A stretch of 64,000 nucleotides of DNA from Candidatus Moanabacter tarae (GTDB lineage: Bacteria > Verrucomicrobiota > Verrucomicrobiia > Opitutales > UBA2987): assembly GCA_003226295.1 (NCBI GenBank), contig CP029803.1, positions 1,048,211-1,112,210 of the forward strand. The letters are read 5' to 3'. Within the stretch, counting starts at the first letter, position 1. Each line of letters begins with the position of its first letter. Made by a program: the position numbers and the translations under genes. Shown piece by piece: positions 8,863-51,064 of this stretch. The notes under the pieces are model-generated. The model saw nothing but the letters and a program-made list of their open reading frames with translations. It was not told the origin of the DNA and searched no databases.

Positions 8863-9076
8863 TCGATATCGACAATTATAAATCAGTCCGCTTTAGTCGA
8901 GATCTAAGGTTTGGCTAGCCATAAAGAAAGAGATCTTTTCGATTAACCAATTTAATGGTTTTTATGCACCTCTGAAAACTCGTTCCTTTTCATCCGGATA
9001 GAAATACCTATAGCGGATTCGAGGCTATCCCTTTAGTGCCAGAAAAATTTGTTCTATAGAAAAGCATAAAAAAGTA

Positions 9077-9508
9077 ATGAAAAAAATCGGCTGCCTTAAC
9101 GGTCCAAACCTGAACCGGCTCGGAATCCGTGAGCCCGGGACCTACGGAACCTTCACTCTCTCGAACTTGGAAGAGCGGCTACGTTCGGAGGCAGCAAGTC
9201 TCGGAATCGCAGTCGAATGCTTCCAGTCGAATCACGAAGGCTATCTAATCGACCAGATCGCCCAATGGGACGATGAAAAGTTCGGAGGTGTGATACTGAA
9301 CCCGGGTGGCTATACCCATACCAGCATCGCATTGCGCGATGCCATTTCCGGTTCCCGCCTCACCGTAGTGGAAGTGCATATTTCAAATACGCACAGCCGT
9401 GAATCATTTCGGCACAAATCTGTCACTGCCCCGGTTAGTAAAGGAGTTATCGCAGGGTTCGGGTTTGATGGCTACCTTCTCGCATTACGTTATCTTGCAC
9501 AAGATTGA
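9077..9508 (+). CDS. aroQ: Type II 3-dehydroquinate dehydratase
   Basis: AroQ converts 3-dehydroquinate to 3-dehydroshikimate in the shikimate pathway. The 143 residues match the type II dodecameric enzyme: NGPNLNRLGIREP near the N-terminus with the flexible-lid Arg and the catalytic Tyr in TYG, SNHEG, NPGGYTHTSIALRDA (substrate loop) and EVHISNTHSRESFRH with the catalytic His. The end matches the family's GFGFDGY pattern. It ends 43 bases from the convergent pgsA gene. Expected cytoplasmic and essential for aromatic amino acid synthesis. Confidence 0.95.
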   Translation: MKKIGCLNGPNLNRLGIREPGTYGTFTLSNLEERLRSEAASLGIAVECFQSNHEGYLIDQIAQWDDEKFGGVILNPGGYTHTSIALRDAISGSRLTVVEVHISNTHSRESFRHKSVTAPVSKGVIAGFGFDGYLLALRYLAQD

Positions 9509-9551
9509 TTACCTAATATTTAAGCGGACATTCAACCAACCGCAAAGGATT

Positions 9552-10166
9552 TTAATCTGGGAGCTCGAATACAACGGTCCAGTATTTTTTCAGATACACC
9601 AGTCCAGAATATATCGTAAACAAGGAAACGAGCACGAAAAAAGCGATTCCCAATTCCTGCAACAGATCCGCAAACCATCCTACGGAAAATCCTGTTAGGT
9701 AGCTAAAATCTTCTCTAATTGAAGGAACAGCAAGAATTACACTAATGCAGATAATCTGCATAATCGTTTTCTGCTTTCCCCGCTTTTCCGCAGCAAGCAC
9801 GACACCATTTCCAGCTGCCACCAACCGAAGTCCCGTAACTAAAAATTCGCGACAGAGAATAAGAAGAACGAACCCAATGGACCATTTTGGCAACATTTGG
9901 ACAGCAAGGAGGGTGACGAACATTCCTACGATAATAATCTTGTCCGCCAATGCATCCATCAACTTCCCAAAATTAGAGATCATATTAAACTTTCTTGCAA
10001 TGTAGCCATCTATCCAGTCCGTCACCCCGGCAAACACAAATAGGAAAAAAGCAATGGAGGGAGCACCTATCCACTCAGCATAGAGCAATGCAGAAATAAC
10101 AAAAAGCAGAGGAATCCGAGATAAAGTAATTAGATTAGGGAGATTCACAAGAAGTCCAGGTGTCAT
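9552..10166 (-). CDS. pgsA: CDP-diacylglycerol--glycerol-3-phosphate 3-phosphatidyltransferase
   Basis: 204-residue integral membrane enzyme that makes phosphatidylglycerophosphate, the first committed step to phosphatidylglycerol and cardiolipin. The CDP-alcohol phosphotransferase signature is complete: DGYIAR, then after eight residues G, then D three residues later and the final D (DWIDGYIARK...GKLMDALADK). LPNLITLSRIPL is the usual N-terminal amphipathic stretch and CREFLVTGLRLVAA a conserved PgsA helix. About five to six hydrophobic segments are visible. ATG at 10166. Confidence 0.93.
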   Translation of the reverse strand: MTPGLLVNLPNLITLSRIPLLFVISALLYAEWIGAPSIAFFLFVFAGVTDWIDGYIARKFNMISNFGKLMDALADKIIIVGMFVTLLAVQMLPKWSIGFVLLILCREFLVTGLRLVAAGNGVVLAAEKRGKQKTIMQIICISVILAVPSIREDFSYLTGFSVGWFADLLQELGIAFFVLVSLFTIYSGLVYLKKYWTVVFELPD

Positions 10167-10434
10167 TCAGTAATTAATACGGATACAATATTAATCGATC
10201 TGAGGAAACATTTCGAACAATTCCTTTCTGGAAATCTAGCTGTGGTAATTTGGTTCAACTATCAACTCTCTAGCTGACTCTCAAAGCTTGCCCTCTAGTG
10301 TAATATCAATCGGCAAACGAATTCTTTCTCTAAAATTCGAATTGCGCTTATGCTAAACAATAAGATTATCTATGTTAATAAAAGAAAAGCCAGACCAAAC
10401 CAGCACATCGTCTTTTCAAATTTAAAAAAAGGGC

Positions 10435-18931: not shown

Positions 18932-19843
18932 ATGAAATACAATCAAGCTGCTACCCTCCCTGTAGAAAAATCTTTGCTAAGTAAGGCTGAGATAAACAGC
19001 TACACCGAAAATGGCTACTTGTCACTTTCTGGGGTTCTGAATGGATCAGAACTTGAAGAACTACAAAGCGTGACGGATGAGTTTATCGATAAGTCGCGGG
19101 AGATAAAAGAAAGTGACACCGTTTTTGATCTTGAACCCTCTCATAGTTTTGCCAATCCCCGTTTGCGCCGACTTAAGAGTCCGTCCAAAACGCATCCCGT
19201 TTTTAAGAAAACCCTCAGCCATACCCGAATACTCGATATCGTTTCCCAACTCATCGGACCCGATATTTATACAAATGGTGATAAAATGAACATGAAGCTG
19301 CCTCACGTAGGGAGCCCTGTCGAATGGCACCAGGATTGGGCATTCTATCCCCATACCAACGACGATCTCTTGGCAGTCGGTATCTGCCTTGATGATTCAA
19401 ACAAAAAAAACGGTTGTCTCATGGTGGTTCCAGGTTCCCACAGGGGGCCTACTCTTGATCACCATCAAGACGGACATTTCGTTGGTGCCGTAACCGACAG
19501 GAATTTTGACCCCGCAGCAGCAGTTCCTATAGAACTAAAAGCGGGCGATATTTCCATTCACCATGTACGTGCCCTACATGGCTCATTGCCTAATAAATCG
19601 GATAAAGCCCGACGCCTTTTCCTTATTCAATATGCTGCTCTCGATGCTTGGCCACTTCAACCTCCACAGTATATGGGAACAGATTTTCACGAATTTGATA
19701 ACTATATTCTTCGCGGGTCACCTAATTTTCAACCTAGAATGGCTGACGTTCCGGTTCGACTACCTCTCCCTCCTGCCAAGAGGCGGGGTTCTATTTACGA
19801 AACTCAGCTGGAATTAAAGGAATCTACCTTCCAGAAATCCTAA
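18932..19843 (+). CDS. Phytanoyl-CoA dioxygenase (PhyH) family protein
   Basis: 303 residues, Fe(II)/2-oxoglutarate-dependent oxygenase of the PhyH family. The iron facial triad is visible: H133 and D135 in VEWHQDWAF and distal H216 in ALHGSLPN; an Arg at 227/228 (ARRLFLIQY) can bind 2-oxoglutarate. GCLMVVPGSHRGP and AGDISIHH are also family-typical. Members hydroxylate or oxidatively process small substrates such as fatty acyl-CoA, ectoine, phosphonates or N-methyl compounds. It closely resembles the second PhyH at 39352 in layout. Just downstream lie two hairpins and the ANKH-like gene. Confidence 0.86.
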   Translation: MKYNQAATLPVEKSLLSKAEINSYTENGYLSLSGVLNGSELEELQSVTDEFIDKSREIKESDTVFDLEPSHSFANPRLRRLKSPSKTHPVFKKTLSHTRILDIVSQLIGPDIYTNGDKMNMKLPHVGSPVEWHQDWAFYPHTNDDLLAVGICLDDSNKKNGCLMVVPGSHRGPTLDHHQDGHFVGAVTDRNFDPAAAVPIELKAGDISIHHVRALHGSLPNKSDKARRLFLIQYAALDAWPLQPPQYMGTDFHEFDNYILRGSPNFQPRMADVPVRLPLPPAKRRGSIYETQLELKESTFQKS

Positions 19844-39351: not shown

Positions 39352-40203
39352 ATGCTTACTGAACCAAAAGTTAAAGAATACAGGGAAAAAGGATGGACTG
39401 TGGTCCCAGACCTTATCGATCAGAGAAAGGTATCAGACCTTTTGTCTGAAATGACCAACATCTGCGCGGGAAATACCCTGGAAACTCATGACAAAACCCG
39501 AATGGAGATGGAACCGGACCAGCCTCCGGAAGGAAGCGCTGTAAGGAGGCTTTACGAACCATGTACCCACTACCCAGCCTTCAATGCGTTCTCAAGATCT
39601 GATCAAATACTTGACCGCGTCCAGTCACTCATAGGACCTGATATTTTACGCCATTACAGTAAAATTAATATGAAACCGGCAAAAGTCGGGTCCGTTGTAG
39701 AATGGCACCAAGATTTGACCTACTACCCTCTAACTAACGGAGATTCTTTGGCCCTTCTTCTTTATCTAGACGATGCAAATATGGAAAACGGATGCCTGAA
39801 ATTGATTCCAGGTCAGCATAATCAGCCTCCCATGGATCACACCTCTGAAGGATTTTTTCAAGGACGAGTTACTTGCCCGGTTGATGAAAATGTCGCGGAA
39901 GCTATAGAAGGTAGTGCGGGAACGGCTATTTTCATGCATGCTATGACACCTCATTCATCAGTACCAAATAAAACTAACAAACCTCGCCGTACTTTAATCA
40001 TAAGCTATCGATCAGCTGACTCTTACCCAATCTTCAGGGGACAAGAAACTGCTGATATTGAACAGCTTGTGGAGTTAGTTCGCGGCAAAAGAAAACTTAA
40101 CGCACGAATTACATTCTCCTCATTTCCAATTCCCGTACATGAAAAAAAAGTAGCTTCACTATACGAACTTCAGGAACAATCGCGAGCAAAGAAAGAACGT
40201 TAA
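39352..40203 (+). CDS. Phytanoyl-CoA dioxygenase (PhyH) family protein
   Basis: 283 residues. The Fe(II) ligands are H119 and D121 in VEWHQDLTYYP with the distal H201 in TPHSSVPN, and an Arg at 212/213 can hold 2-oxoglutarate. NGCLKLIPGQH and GTAIFMHAM are conserved. It is similar in layout to the protein at 18932, although the N-terminal part differs, so the two are probably paralogues with different substrates. Convergent with an enolase-superfamily gene 15 bases downstream. Confidence 0.85.
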   Translation: MLTEPKVKEYREKGWTVVPDLIDQRKVSDLLSEMTNICAGNTLETHDKTRMEMEPDQPPEGSAVRRLYEPCTHYPAFNAFSRSDQILDRVQSLIGPDILRHYSKINMKPAKVGSVVEWHQDLTYYPLTNGDSLALLLYLDDANMENGCLKLIPGQHNQPPMDHTSEGFFQGRVTCPVDENVAEAIEGSAGTAIFMHAMTPHSSVPNKTNKPRRTLIISYRSADSYPIFRGQETADIEQLVELVRGKRKLNARITFSSFPIPVHEKKVASLYELQEQSRAKKER

Positions 40204-45835: not shown

Positions 45836-46810
45836 TTAATAAAGTCCCGACGCTCGTGCCCTTTGTTGAACAAGAGACAATACAACATCTGTTGTTGGAG
45901 TTTTGACTTCGACAAGTCGTCCCATCTCCTGGACCACTGTCAATAAAGCATCGATTTCCATGTGTCGTCCCCTCTCTAGATCCTGCAACATGGATGTTTT
46001 GTGGGCTCCCACCGCTGCTGCTCCAGCAATACGTCTATCAACATCAACGCCAAAACGTACGCCCAATCTCTTTCCAATCGCCTGAGCTTCCAGCATCATT
46101 GTACGTGCTACCTTACGGGTACCCGGTTCGGTCGCAATTATATCCAACGTCGATAAGGTAAGAACGCTAATAGGATTAAAGCATAGATTCCCCCAAAGCT
46201 TAACCCAAATTTCATTTCGAATCTGAGCACGAACGGGTGCTCTCAATCCCGCTCGGTTCATGATCTCGCTCAATCGTGAAACGCGATTAGTCTTACCGCC
46301 AATCGGTTCTCCCAAGCTGAATCGGTCCCCATCAATATGACCAATCAAACCTGGTTTCAAAATTTCTGTAGCTGGATAAACAACACACCCAATAGCCCTT
46401 TCCGGTCCAATCTTATCCCATTGCTCACCCCCTGAATCAATACTCTCAAGTCGTTGATTACACCACGACCCTTCTAACCCATAAAAATACCAGAACGGTA
46501 TGCCGTTGTATGCAGTCACCACTGCTGTATCAGGACCGAGCAAGGGTTGTATGGAATCGACAATACCCGGGATAGATGGTGCCTTTAGCGTAATAATAAC
46601 GTAGTCCTGAGGACCAATGTCAGCTGGATTACTCGTGCAAAAAGGGTGCGCTACACGAGTTTTGCCCTCAGTGTTCAACTTAATCCCACTCTCTCTCATT
46701 GCCTCGAGGTGCGGGCCACGGGAAATCAACGACACTTCCTCCCCAGCAAGGGACAATTGAACGCCAAGATAACCGCCGACCGCCCCGGCACCGTAAATAC
46801 AAATCCGCAT
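45836..46810 (-). CDS. 2-dehydropantoate 2-reductase-like (ApbA/PanE) protein
   Basis: 324 residues. Rossmann motif IYGAGAVGGYLG, the conserved TAYNGIP and GEPIGGKTNR, then IRNEIWVKLWGNLCFNPIS with the catalytic Lys-type residues, and a C-terminal MEIDALLTVVQEMGR. ApbA/PanE enzymes reduce ketopantoate, though the family includes related acid reductases. The start overlaps the acyl-CoA ligase stop by one base (TAATG), indicating coupling. That linkage to an oxalate/acyl-CoA ligase makes a role in an acid catabolic step more likely than pantothenate synthesis; inference. Confidence 0.78.
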   Translation of the reverse strand: MRICIYGAGAVGGYLGVQLSLAGEEVSLISRGPHLEAMRESGIKLNTEGKTRVAHPFCTSNPADIGPQDYVIITLKAPSIPGIVDSIQPLLGPDTAVVTAYNGIPFWYFYGLEGSWCNQRLESIDSGGEQWDKIGPERAIGCVVYPATEILKPGLIGHIDGDRFSLGEPIGGKTNRVSRLSEIMNRAGLRAPVRAQIRNEIWVKLWGNLCFNPISVLTLSTLDIIATEPGTRKVARTMMLEAQAIGKRLGVRFGVDVDRRIAGAAAVGAHKTSMLQDLERGRHMEIDALLTVVQEMGRLVEVKTPTTDVVLSLVQQRARASGLY

Positions 46811-48342
46811 TAGCCAATGCCAAGTTTTTCAGCTAATCCAATGCGTTGTATTTTCCCAGTGGGACCCTTTGGGATTTCGTCAAGGAAAAGAACTTTTCTC
46901 GGCACCTTAAAATTTGCTAGCCGTTCATTAGCAAATGTCTGAATGTCGCGCTCTTCAGCCTTGTTGCCTTCACGCAAAACGATAGCAACGGCAACTTCTT
47001 CACCGAGTTTAGAATGAGGCATTGCAAAGGTCACCACCTGTTCAACTGATGGATGATCCATCAACACGTCATCTATTTCAAGTGGAGAAATCTTTTCTCC
47101 ACCTCGATTAATAATCTCTTTCAGGCGACCGGTGATCGTCAGGTATCCGTCCAAGTCTAACTTACCTTGATCGCCAGTACGAAACCAGCCGTTCTTAAAG
47201 GCCTCATTATTCGCTATCGGATTATTCTCGTACCCCGACGTAACGTTTGGACCTTTAATAACTACCTCGCCAACATCTCCAATCGAAAGAAACAAACCTT
47301 CTTCGTTCATAATGGCCACCTCAGGTCCAGCCGCTCGACCGACAGTGCCCGGTTTTCTCTTCCCTGGAGGAAGAGAATTACAAGTCATTTGATGTGCAGC
47401 CTCCGTCATCGCATATGCTTCCACAACAGGAGAACTAAAAACCTCCTCCAACCGCTGCATTACCTGAGGCGGCAGGGAAGCAGAGGAAGATCGGATGAAA
47501 CGAAGTCCATGGGAATCAATAATGTCCTGATTTCTTCCAGCCATACTGAGTATCATCTGGTGCATGGTCGGAACCGCTGTGTACCACGTCGGTTTTGCTT
47601 CCTCCAACCAGGAAAAGAACCGTAACCCATTGAAACCCGGAGTACAAAACACCGATGCCCCAGCATAAAGACTTGAAAGAATCCCAGCAATTAGACCGTG
47701 TATATGAAAAAGGGGCATCACGTTTAGGCAACGATCTCTCTTCTTTAAAGATAATGTTTCGCAAATATGCTCAGCTGATGCACATACATTCCGGTGCGAG
47801 AGAGGGACAATTTTCGGCCGTGATGTGGTACCTGAAGTATGCAAAACAAGGGCAACATCATCAACACTCGCCAGACCTCCAGACAAATCCGATTTTGAAT
47901 GCCTAAAATCTCCTCTGGGTATAATCTTAAATCGCCCCACGGGACCAGAATCATCTAATACAAGATCAAGCACTGGAATATTAAGTTTGTCTGCCGCATT
48001 AACTGCCGAAGAATTACTTCCCGCCTCCACCAACAAGGCTTTCGATTGAAGATCGGCTAGATAAAACTCAAACTCCTCTTCTCGGTAGGCAGGATTGAGG
48101 GGTGCTGTTGTAGCACCCGAAGCAATAGACACAAAGGCCATTGCCATTTCCGGGCCATTGGGCAGAACGATGGAGACTCGATCGTTTCGACCAATGCCAA
48201 ATTTATTTAAGCTCAATACCGTTTCGTCAACCTGCTCCCGCAGGTTCCCATAGGTGAGCTCTTTCCGTTGAGAACCTAAAATGGCAACGGATTCATCTTC
48301 CCCGATCGAGAGAAGTTTTCTGACTGTACTGTACTTGGGCAT
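46810..48342 (-). CDS. AMP-dependent acyl-CoA synthetase, oxalyl-CoA synthetase-like (AAE3/Pcs60 type)
   Basis: 510 residues, ANL-superfamily adenylate-forming ligase that makes an acyl-CoA from an acid. ATP loop LHTSGTTSRPKIVPLSH, A5-type YAMTEAAHQM, GWFRTGDQG and the C-terminal lysine loop GPTGKIQR. The segments YAMTEAAHQ, GPNVTSGY and GGEKISPLEIDDVL resemble plant AAE3 and yeast Pcs60 oxalyl-CoA synthetases by recollection. Oxalate is therefore a good candidate substrate but other short dicarboxylates cannot be excluded. The PanE-like gene is translationally coupled downstream. No oxalyl-CoA decarboxylase or formyl-CoA transferase was recognised. Confidence 0.77.
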   Translation of the reverse strand: MPKYSTVRKLLSIGEDESVAILGSQRKELTYGNLREQVDETVLSLNKFGIGRNDRVSIVLPNGPEMAMAFVSIASGATTAPLNPAYREEEFEFYLADLQSKALLVEAGSNSSAVNAADKLNIPVLDLVLDDSGPVGRFKIIPRGDFRHSKSDLSGGLASVDDVALVLHTSGTTSRPKIVPLSHRNVCASAEHICETLSLKKRDRCLNVMPLFHIHGLIAGILSSLYAGASVFCTPGFNGLRFFSWLEEAKPTWYTAVPTMHQMILSMAGRNQDIIDSHGLRFIRSSSASLPPQVMQRLEEVFSSPVVEAYAMTEAAHQMTCNSLPPGKRKPGTVGRAAGPEVAIMNEEGLFLSIGDVGEVVIKGPNVTSGYENNPIANNEAFKNGWFRTGDQGKLDLDGYLTITGRLKEIINRGGEKISPLEIDDVLMDHPSVEQVVTFAMPHSKLGEEVAVAIVLREGNKAEERDIQTFANERLANFKVPRKVLFLDEIPKGPTGKIQRIGLAEKLGIG

Positions 48343-48773: not shown

Positions 48774-49994
48774 TCAATCAAACTGCACCTTTCGTTGCCT
48801 TAGAGCCTTCCCTTTACCACGAAGGATGTCTTCTCTCTGCCAAATTCGAACTATCTCTAAAATCGGATCGTTTTCTCCCAATGTCCCTAGCAGTCGTTCT
48901 TTTGTAAACCACTCCCACCGAATCCCCTCGTGGAACGAATTTTTAAACAATCGTTCCGAATCAATAAACCCATACACCCGACACACCTCGTTCTTCGACT
49001 GAATGTCCTCAATATACGACATCCAAGGGACTTCGATATTAAGTTGTTTGTGAATAATATCCTGTAATGCACTAATTCTCGCCCCTACATCCCATCCGAC
49101 ACCTTCTTCCTCGTCTGCGGCTTCGCCACCAGGCAAAGTCCAATGATCACTGTTGTGTTCACGCACTAGCAAATATCTTCGAGTCCCCTCCCATTCTCTC
49201 TCGACTAATAACCTGGTGGAAGTGATTGGTTTATCAAAATGAATGGGAAGCAACCTCTTTCCCTCCACACTTAGCGATTCATAAGCGGAACTTGTGTAGG
49301 GAAAATATCCCGCAGCGGGCGGCGCACTTACACCGCAATATTTCAGGAAGAAACCACAACGATCTTCCCTGGTATCGCCCGACGGAGGGAAATGCCAGGT
49401 ATGTCCATGCATCAAAAGCAAATCCCCTGTATTAAGCTCAGGATCAATAAAAGGACCCAATCGATCTTTATTTGGACAACTTAAATCCCGGATCCGAGCA
49501 TTCTCATCGATCACCTCCGCCAATTTATGAGATCCAGGTGACACAAGTAGAGGGCCGAATGAGTTATCAAAGTCATTCAGCGGTATGATCGCAAAAAGCC
49601 AATTCATGGAAGAGCCTACTGGCCTCCATCTCTTATAATCGCAGTGAGCTCCCCCACCTTTGTCCCCGGGACTCCTTAGGTAAGCGACAAAAGCAGTCAA
49701 ATAAGACGATTCGCCTAAAAAAGATTCCACAGCATTCACCACCACAGGATGTTCTACTACCGGCACAAACCCCGGGTCGGCCATTTGATTGCCTTGAATT
49801 GTATATTTCCCAGGAGTGGGATATTCCAAGCCTTCGCCATCAGTCCAGGCCCGCCCACCTCTGGTATACTCTTGGACCAAAGAACGATAGTGTTCGGCTT
49901 CATCCAATGTTAATACATTACGAATGATATGGTAGCCCTTCTCTTGGTAGGCACCCTTATCTTGGTCGCTTAAGATAACTTCTTTTTTTACCAT
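48774..49994 (-). CDS. PhyH dioxygenase fused to a degenerate Nudix domain
   Basis: 406 residues. Residues 1-235 are a PhyH dioxygenase: H117 and D119 in AHCDYKRWRP, distal His at 198/201 in MHGHTWHF, and Arg at 209/212 for 2-oxoglutarate. Residues about 260-372 have the Nudix order of strands: RLLVEREWEG, YLLVREHNSDHWTLPGGE, VYGFIDSER and GIRWEWFTKERL. The Nudix box is present as a frame (GGE then about 20 residues) but the REUxEExGU core reads QDIIHKQLNI, without catalytic glutamates. So this is probably a dead Nudix used for binding. Known single-domain relatives lie beside it at 50171. ATG at 49994; a structured stem directly precedes it. Confidence 0.78.
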   Translation of the reverse strand: MVKKEVILSDQDKGAYQEKGYHIIRNVLTLDEAEHYRSLVQEYTRGGRAWTDGEGLEYPTPGKYTIQGNQMADPGFVPVVEHPVVVNAVESFLGESSYLTAFVAYLRSPGDKGGGAHCDYKRWRPVGSSMNWLFAIIPLNDFDNSFGPLLVSPGSHKLAEVIDENARIRDLSCPNKDRLGPFIDPELNTGDLLLMHGHTWHFPPSGDTREDRCGFFLKYCGVSAPPAAGYFPYTSSAYESLSVEGKRLLPIHFDKPITSTRLLVEREWEGTRRYLLVREHNSDHWTLPGGEAADEEEGVGWDVGARISALQDIIHKQLNIEVPWMSYIEDIQSKNEVCRVYGFIDSERLFKNSFHEGIRWEWFTKERLLGTLGENDPILEIVRIWQREDILRGKGKALRQRKVQFD

Positions 49995-50170: not shown

Positions 50171-51064
50171 CTATGAATAATCTATAGCTTCAGGGCCCTC
50201 CCACCTCCGCAGACTAACACCAAACGCATCACGACGCATACCATCAGGACGATTAGGAAGATCGTATTCAATATCGCGAGTGTTGAGGCTTCGAAAGTAG
50301 GGCTGAATATCTTTGGGTAGACTAGCAATTTTTACTGGATCCCGTTCCTCCACCTCCCCTATGGGGCCGGACCAGGCAGGACGATAAGCGAGAGCATACA
50401 TCCGCCGATCCCTATCGCAATGGTTGGGAAAGTTTGCATGAAAAACTTTTTGGTTAATTATCACAGCCGATCCAGCCTTGCAGGTGATCATTAATTCGTC
50501 AGGATGACTGAGGTAACGAAGATAGGGATTGGCGTCCCGGTGCATGGAAAGATGAGATCTTGGTATGACTTTGAATGGAGACCGTTCCGGAGTAAGATCA
50601 TCTAGGTAATATAGGACGCGGGCCAGAATAGGTGAGCTGGATTGAAGACCAAAGATCTTAGAGCCGTAAGGCTGAGCATCCGTATGCATAGCAATTCCAG
50701 GATGACCTGGTTCTGATACAACATAAGCGCATGAGGTACAAATAAGATCGTCACCGAAAAGGTAAGTAAGAAAATCAACAATTTTGGGGTTCCCTATTAC
50801 CTTAATCGCAGTAGGAGAGTCGGTCCACTGTACATCGGAACACCCTCTCTGGTGAGGACTATAATCCACCGCCTCTGTCGGGATCCGGTCAAGCTCCATC
50901 CCAATTGATTCAGTCTCTTTGACTGAAAGGACATCGGGGATAACAACAAATCCGTTGAATTCGATAGATCGAATCTGATCAGCCCGGGTTAGGCTAGCCC
51001 AATTAGTTGTATCCTGTCGGGCGTCGGCAATGCTATCTCGACTGTTGGTAAAAGAAGTGTCCAT
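50171..51064 (-). CDS. Phytanoyl-CoA dioxygenase (PhyH) family protein
   Basis: 297 residues. Iron ligands H127 and D129 in IAMHTDAQPYG, H209 in KVFHANFPN, Arg at 220/221 in DRRMYALAY. The N-terminal 30 residues are charged and probably not part of the domain. The lack of a VEWHQD motif and the GIAMHTDAQ version sets it apart from the two at 18932 and 39352. The same orientation as the PhyH-Nudix fusion 176 bases downstream suggests they act on related substrates. ATG at 51064. Confidence 0.82.
   Translation of the reverse strand: MDTSFTNSRDSIADARQDTTNWASLTRADQIRSIEFNGFVVIPDVLSVKETESIGMELDRIPTEAVDYSPHQRGCSDVQWTDSPTAIKVIGNPKIVDFLTYLFGDDLICTSCAYVVSEPGHPGIAMHTDAQPYGSKIFGLQSSSPILARVLYYLDDLTPERSPFKVIPRSHLSMHRDANPYLRYLSHPDELMITCKAGSAVIINQKVFHANFPNHCDRDRRMYALAYRPAWSGPIGEVEERDPVKIASLPKDIQPYFRSLNTRDIEYDLPNRPDGMRRDAFGVSLRRWEGPEAIDYS

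Follow-up and report, generated by a model that had tools for sequence, protein, structure and literature searches.

The gene investigated encodes a protein in which a PhyH-type dioxygenase domain is joined to a C-terminal domain with a predicted, degenerate Nudix fold, and sequence comparison identifies this combination of PhyH and pseudo-Nudix as a real two-part protein, shared by dozens of bacteria that belong to several phyla. The gene lies in a stretch of 64,000 nucleotides of contig CP029803.1 of Candidatus Moanabacter tarae, hereafter called the window. The open reading frame of the original prediction was confirmed as genuine and its strand, absent from that prediction, was added (Table 1). 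In the full protein PhyH was the sole family matched in Pfam, and the NCBIfam library contained no model fitting the full 406-aa protein.

Table 1. Features of the fusion gene and of its product (positions are those of the window)
Feature	Position	Strand	Remarks
Whole gene, PhyH dioxygenase with C-terminal pseudo-Nudix domain	48774..49994	minus	406 aa, ATG at 49994
PhyH (PF05721) Fe(II)/2-oxoglutarate dioxygenase domain, residues ~1-235	49290..49994	minus	Pfam, ligands, Foldseek
Predicted pseudo-Nudix domain, residues ~250-385	48840..49247	minus	AlphaFold2 model, Foldseek PDB
Degenerate Nudix box WTLPGG...GVGWDVGARISALQDIIHKQ, residues 285-317	49044..49142	minus	Alignment, 80 relatives
Conserved basic C-terminal tail RGKGKA...Q...QF, residues 392-406	48777..48821	minus	Alignment, 80 rows

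The N-terminal domain (N-domain) matched the Pfam family PhyH (PF05721) over residues 16-201 with an E-value of 2.3e-17 and 64.4 bits, the cut-off being 22. As predicted for residues 1-235, all Fe(II)/2-oxoglutarate ligands were present; the iron ligands H117, D119 and H201 as well as R212, for 2-oxoglutarate, were invariant in an alignment of 41 sequences. In the wider alignment of 80 rows the H/D/H ligands were found in 78 rows and the arginine in 75, the remainder being gaps or X. Comparison of the full-length model with the PDB by Foldseek yielded 2-oxoglutarate (2OG) oxygenases for all of the best 50 matches, with PhyH-type enzymes at the top and SnoN as the best fold match. A profile of the full family, searched against solved structures, was nearest to EctD (E = 8.5e-11) and also matched SnoK/SnoN; human PhyH gave a weak sequence match only (E = 3.4e-4). 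The matches to solved PhyH-type enzymes ended at about profile position 218 (about residue 220), short of the C-terminal domain (C-domain). Within the very large and functionally diverse PhyH family the N-domain is nothing unusual, and its intact ligands are best read as those of an active, stand-alone Fe(II)/2-oxoglutarate oxygenase.

The link of the C-domain to Nudix proteins proved weak in profile searches. Scanned alone, the C-domain reached 13.3 bits with PF00293 (NUDIX), below the cut-off of 21.1 (E = 0.088), and no family member showed a clear match to this model. No Nudix protein emerged when PDB sequences were searched with the profile of the C-domain, so that sequence alone was not decisive and the fold search had to decide. 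On the positive side, hhalign aligned 90 columns of the family C-domain with 19 Nudix proteins from the window genome and related genomes, beginning just before LPGG; the score of 25.7 (P = 0.0016) exceeded the maximum of 19.8 that unrelated families reached in 60 control comparisons. For residues 236-406, AlphaFold2 gave, from 38 related domains, a model of usable confidence (mean pLDDT 77.5; 75.8-77.5 over the five models, 74-94 for most of the domain) that agreed with the full-length model. The secondary structure predicted for residues ~257-385, b-b-b-a-b-b-b-a-a, is that of Nudix proteins. The strand order originally proposed for residues 260-372 was thus borne out, but not the end of the domain, which reaches to ~385 and is followed by a tail to residue 406.

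Foldseek comparison of the C-domain with the PDB gave 315 matches at E <= 0.001, of which the best 50 were all Nudix-fold or Nudix-related (best E 5.2e-7, probability 1.00). Among the matches listed were the Ap4A hydrolase 1ktg, the NrtR Nudix domain with ADP-ribose (3gz8), Dcp2, NudC, MTH1, the C-terminal domain of MUTYH and AraR with L-arabinose (5deq being among the NrtR/AraR entries). Target-normalised TM-scores were about 0.45-0.7 for most single-domain targets. By prediction, the C-domain has the Nudix alpha/beta/alpha fold; the match of the model is clear at the level of the fold, but distant. A C-terminal part of another kind, resembling a Nudix domain only by chance around LPGG, would agree with the Pfam and profile searches that stayed under their cut-offs, but is highly improbable, given that only Nudix-type chains appeared among the Foldseek matches listed, that the order of secondary structure fits, and that the alignment with the 19 true Nudix proteins exceeded all controls.

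The canonical Nudix box reads GX5EX7REUXEEXGU, with REX2EE as its metal-binding part. In the window protein WTLPGG comprises residues 285-290, and the glutamate positions of REX2EE, 313, 316 and 317, are occupied by I, K and Q; the core had originally been read as QDIIHKQ, which is exact for residues 311-317. Among 80 relatives these three positions are mostly L/I, T and Q (L/I-x2-T-Q). Two or more of the metal glutamates were found in none of the 80 rows, and a single one in 6. The original statement that every catalytic glutamate is lost therefore holds for the three metal-binding residues but not for the glutamate of GX5E, which is retained as E296 (E in 69 of the 80 rows). The register of the box is supported by G319, the EEXGU glycine, which 59 of 80 rows retain. 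Between E296 and the helix lie about 8 residues more than in the canonical box, and this enlarged loop holds a conserved VGWDxGAR. According to the alignment the phosphohydrolase metal site has been lost in the whole family, and its replacement by L/I-x2-T-Q and the VGWDxGAR loop is orderly and consistent rather than the result of random decay. It is very unlikely that the C-domain still acts as a hydrolase by means of the loop glutamates E294-E296 (GEGWEEE), which would render the protein bifunctional. Glutamates do occur at positions 294, 295 and 296, in the loop after LPGG, in 69-72 of the 80 rows, but all three canonical metal glutamates are absent, the loop glutamates are missing in subfamily 2 (described below) as well, and residue 294 of the window protein is D, unlike the glutamate of the family.

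Mean pairwise identity in the 80-row alignment was 73% for the N-domain and 62% for the C-domain. Both domains are accordingly under strong constraint, the C-domain nearly as much as the N-domain, and this constraint on both halves indicates that the dead domain still serves the protein and is not a relic. In the 41 sequences D302, W324, Y327, D330, R339, Y341, W362, W385, R392, G393 and G395 of the C-domain were invariant, and these new invariant residues likewise argue for a retained function. The tail residues R392, G393 and G395 were present in 75-76 of the 80 rows. A role of the pseudo-Nudix domain in dimerisation or stability, free of any small-molecule function, is an unlikely alternative. 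A packed interface would account for the many Trp, Gly, Tyr and Asp residues among the invariants, and also for a box that has been replaced and not merely decayed, but the polar motifs conserved in the C-domain and tail, WEEE, GWDxGAR and RGKGK, are unusual for a plain interface.

A scan of contigs from one genome per species revealed 48 loci, most of them with full-length relatives of 51-59% identity. The survey showed the architecture to be common to Poribacteria, which provided most of the hosts, and to Latescibacterota, Gemmatimonadota and Caldilineaceae (Chloroflexota). Profile searches detected the C-domain in 48 of 85 genomes from the phylum of a poribacterial member, in 18 of 64 from the phylum of a Latescibacterota/Gemmatimonadota member (a second centre drew the same genomes) and in 1 of 350 from the phylum of the Caldilineaceae member. 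In the phylum of the window genome, searched with the single-sequence C-domain as query, the domain was detected in the window genome only (289 genomes); a distant full-length relative of 38% identity was found in G016, a genome of the same order. Complete C-domain matches lay in frames roughly 380-495 aa long, the size that the fusion would need, and no convincing free-standing copy was observed among the C-domain profile matches. Where relatives at the 48 loci are shortened, they appear to be fragments from contig edges or broken frames. Viral contigs and plasmids were also searched, and no relative was found in either. A weak match in G047 (L148) was judged by eye to be an SNF2-like helicase and was rejected as unrelated.

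Two further, more distant subfamilies share the two-part architecture. Subfamily 2 (L050, L120, L121, L123 and L147) has an insert of about 9 residues ahead of the HxD motif and carries LPG[AV] in place of LPGG (LPGAPASID type), the GG-box loop being lost; like subfamily 1, it retains the tail motif RGxG. Subfamily 3 consists of one very divergent protein in a 458-aa frame (L146, 1069-2442, plus strand), whose gene directly precedes a glycoside-hydrolase-32-like gene, named by eye. Some genomes (G328, G333) carry both subfamily 1 and subfamily 2. More distant members whose Nudix box might still be intact were also sought, but the search led only to these two subfamilies, both of which are more degenerate; an active ancestor was thus not recovered. 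The tree placed the window protein on a long branch together with UBA6620 (Latescibacteria) and RS821 (Gemmatimonadetes), with support values for this grouping of 94/92 and 89/72, under the starred level. The patchy occurrence suggests horizontal spread. Many of the bins bearing relatives are named like sponge metagenomes, and Poribacteria are predominantly sponge-associated (PMC3909097); judged from both, many hosts of the fusion are probably sponge symbionts.

For the function of the protein, we see about an even chance that the pseudo-Nudix domain and the RGKGK tail bind a substrate or ligand of an active PhyH oxygenase. Binding is favoured because the fusion is conserved at full length, the oxygenase ligands are invariant, the metal glutamates are lost and new invariants have appeared. 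The C-domain would no longer hydrolyse but would be kept as a binding module; together with the tail it may recruit and position a substrate that contains a phosphate or nucleotide or is otherwise bulky and polar, which the PhyH half might then hydroxylate or oxidatively demethylate. Disorder of the tail in the full-length model, where residues 393-406 have pLDDT values below 50, speaks against such a binding module. A nucleotide-linked substrate is possible, although the gene context gives no support for it. The CoA- or NDP-linked substrate of the original prediction was not supported, since no neighbour is conserved between phyla and the residues of a nucleotide site were not identified; the GG-box loop is missing from subfamily 2 and so cannot have a phosphate-binding role common to the whole family. 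The most specific version, in which the dead Nudix domain grips the nucleotide part (CoA, NDP or ApnA) of a conjugated substrate and feeds its other end to the iron centre of PhyH, as a new class of oxygenase spread in microbial communities of marine sponges, is speculative, with perhaps one chance in four. Somewhat less probable is that the pseudo-Nudix domain is an allosteric sensor, binding a regulatory metabolite other than the substrate (ADP-ribose, NAD, ApnA or a sugar) and switching the oxygenase on or off in the manner of TRPM2 or NrtR/AraR. The Foldseek matches to NrtR with ADP-ribose and AraR with arabinose agree with a sensor, and known dead Nudix domains often act in this way (PMC6461439, PMC4666351). 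If the domain were regulatory, however, its loss from some members would be expected more often, yet the shortened ones look like fragments, and a conserved ligand pocket was not demonstrated.

In the gene neighbourhoods of 49 loci no neighbour was conserved between phyla. The recurrent neighbours represent poribacterial synteny (genes for an acetyltransferase-like and a DUF488-like protein, both named by eye, and another PhyH gene), and none of the recurrent families includes a window gene; an assignment of function from operons was therefore abandoned. The nearest genes in the window encode a PhyH protein (50171-51064), an AMP-binding ligase, a ketopantoate-reductase-like protein and others, none of them recurrent. 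The AMP-binding ligase next to the gene (46810-48342) might hint at a CoA substrate, but this idea was rejected because the ligase is not among the recurrent neighbours of the relatives.

The neighbouring PhyH gene (50171-51064, minus strand) has a single domain and lies directly upstream on the same strand, with a gap of about 176 bases, and further PhyH genes occur in the window at 18932-19843 and 39352-40203. At least 62 PhyH (PF05721) matches were counted in the window genome (2.63 Mb; 94 candidates) and at least 63 in G016 (111 candidates), as compared with 11-21 in three genomes of the same family and 0 in many of the same order. The window genome and G016 show a massive PhyH expansion. 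On contig 12 of G016 about seven similar PhyH-like genes of ~280 aa are arranged in tandem in the same direction, followed by one on the opposite strand (L110, 369-7501), close to the distant fusion relative (8983-10200). Two adjacent genes on this contig (10534-13116 and 13362-15944) encode other fusions, judged by eye, of an N-terminal kelch/galactose-oxidase-like part with a sodium:solute symporter-like C-terminus.

The N-terminal half belongs to the same superfamily (PF05721) as the ectoine hydroxylase EctD, SnoN/SnoK, human PhyH and SptF, with which it shares the ligands, but none of the solved PhyH relatives matches the C-domain. In Poribacteria, 305 diverse PhyH sequences, mostly without function, have been reported from six single-cell genomes (Kamke et al. 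2014, PMC3909097); these families occur in the same hosts as the fusion, and a Nudix domain is not mentioned. The PhyH expansion in Poribacteria is thus known (PMC3909097), while the fusion with Nudix is so far apparently undescribed: in agreement with the original prediction, a text search of literature covering only a minority of subscription papers found no published PhyH-Nudix or 2-oxoglutarate dioxygenase-Nudix fusion. PHYHD1/FJS are PhyH-type 2'-O-methyl-nucleoside demethylases, with Poribacteria among the active sources (PMC12709175). They resemble the fusion in enzyme type and in hosts, acting on nucleosides and having bacterial relatives in Poribacteria and Gemmatimonadota; Nudix is not mentioned for them (PMC12709175). 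As PhyH genes are hugely expanded in Poribacteria and in the window genome, almost all without a known substrate, a subfamily with an additional, recognisable domain predicted to bind could provide a handle on substrate identity.

With Nudix hydrolases such as MutT, 1ktg and Dcp2 the C-domain shares the predicted fold, the strand order, LPGG and the glutamate of GX5E; it differs from them in lacking REX2EE in all members, in its longer loop and in being joined to an oxygenase. Also comparable are the dead Nudix domains that are used for binding and fused to an effector, i.e. NUDT9-H of TRPM2, AraR of the NrtR family and CCAR2/DBC1, which the C-domain resembles in its predicted binding. The dead Nudix domain of human TRPM2 binds ADP-ribose (PMC6461439, PMC4974056), and Nudix domains sense ligands in the NrtR-family regulators NrtR/AraR (PMC4666351). 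The effectors of these types are a channel, DNA-binding domains or a scaffold, whereas here the effector is a metabolic oxygenase. The fusion would be, as far as found, the first oxygenase with a Nudix-derived domain, and would lengthen the short list of dead Nudix domains that have been reused as binders.
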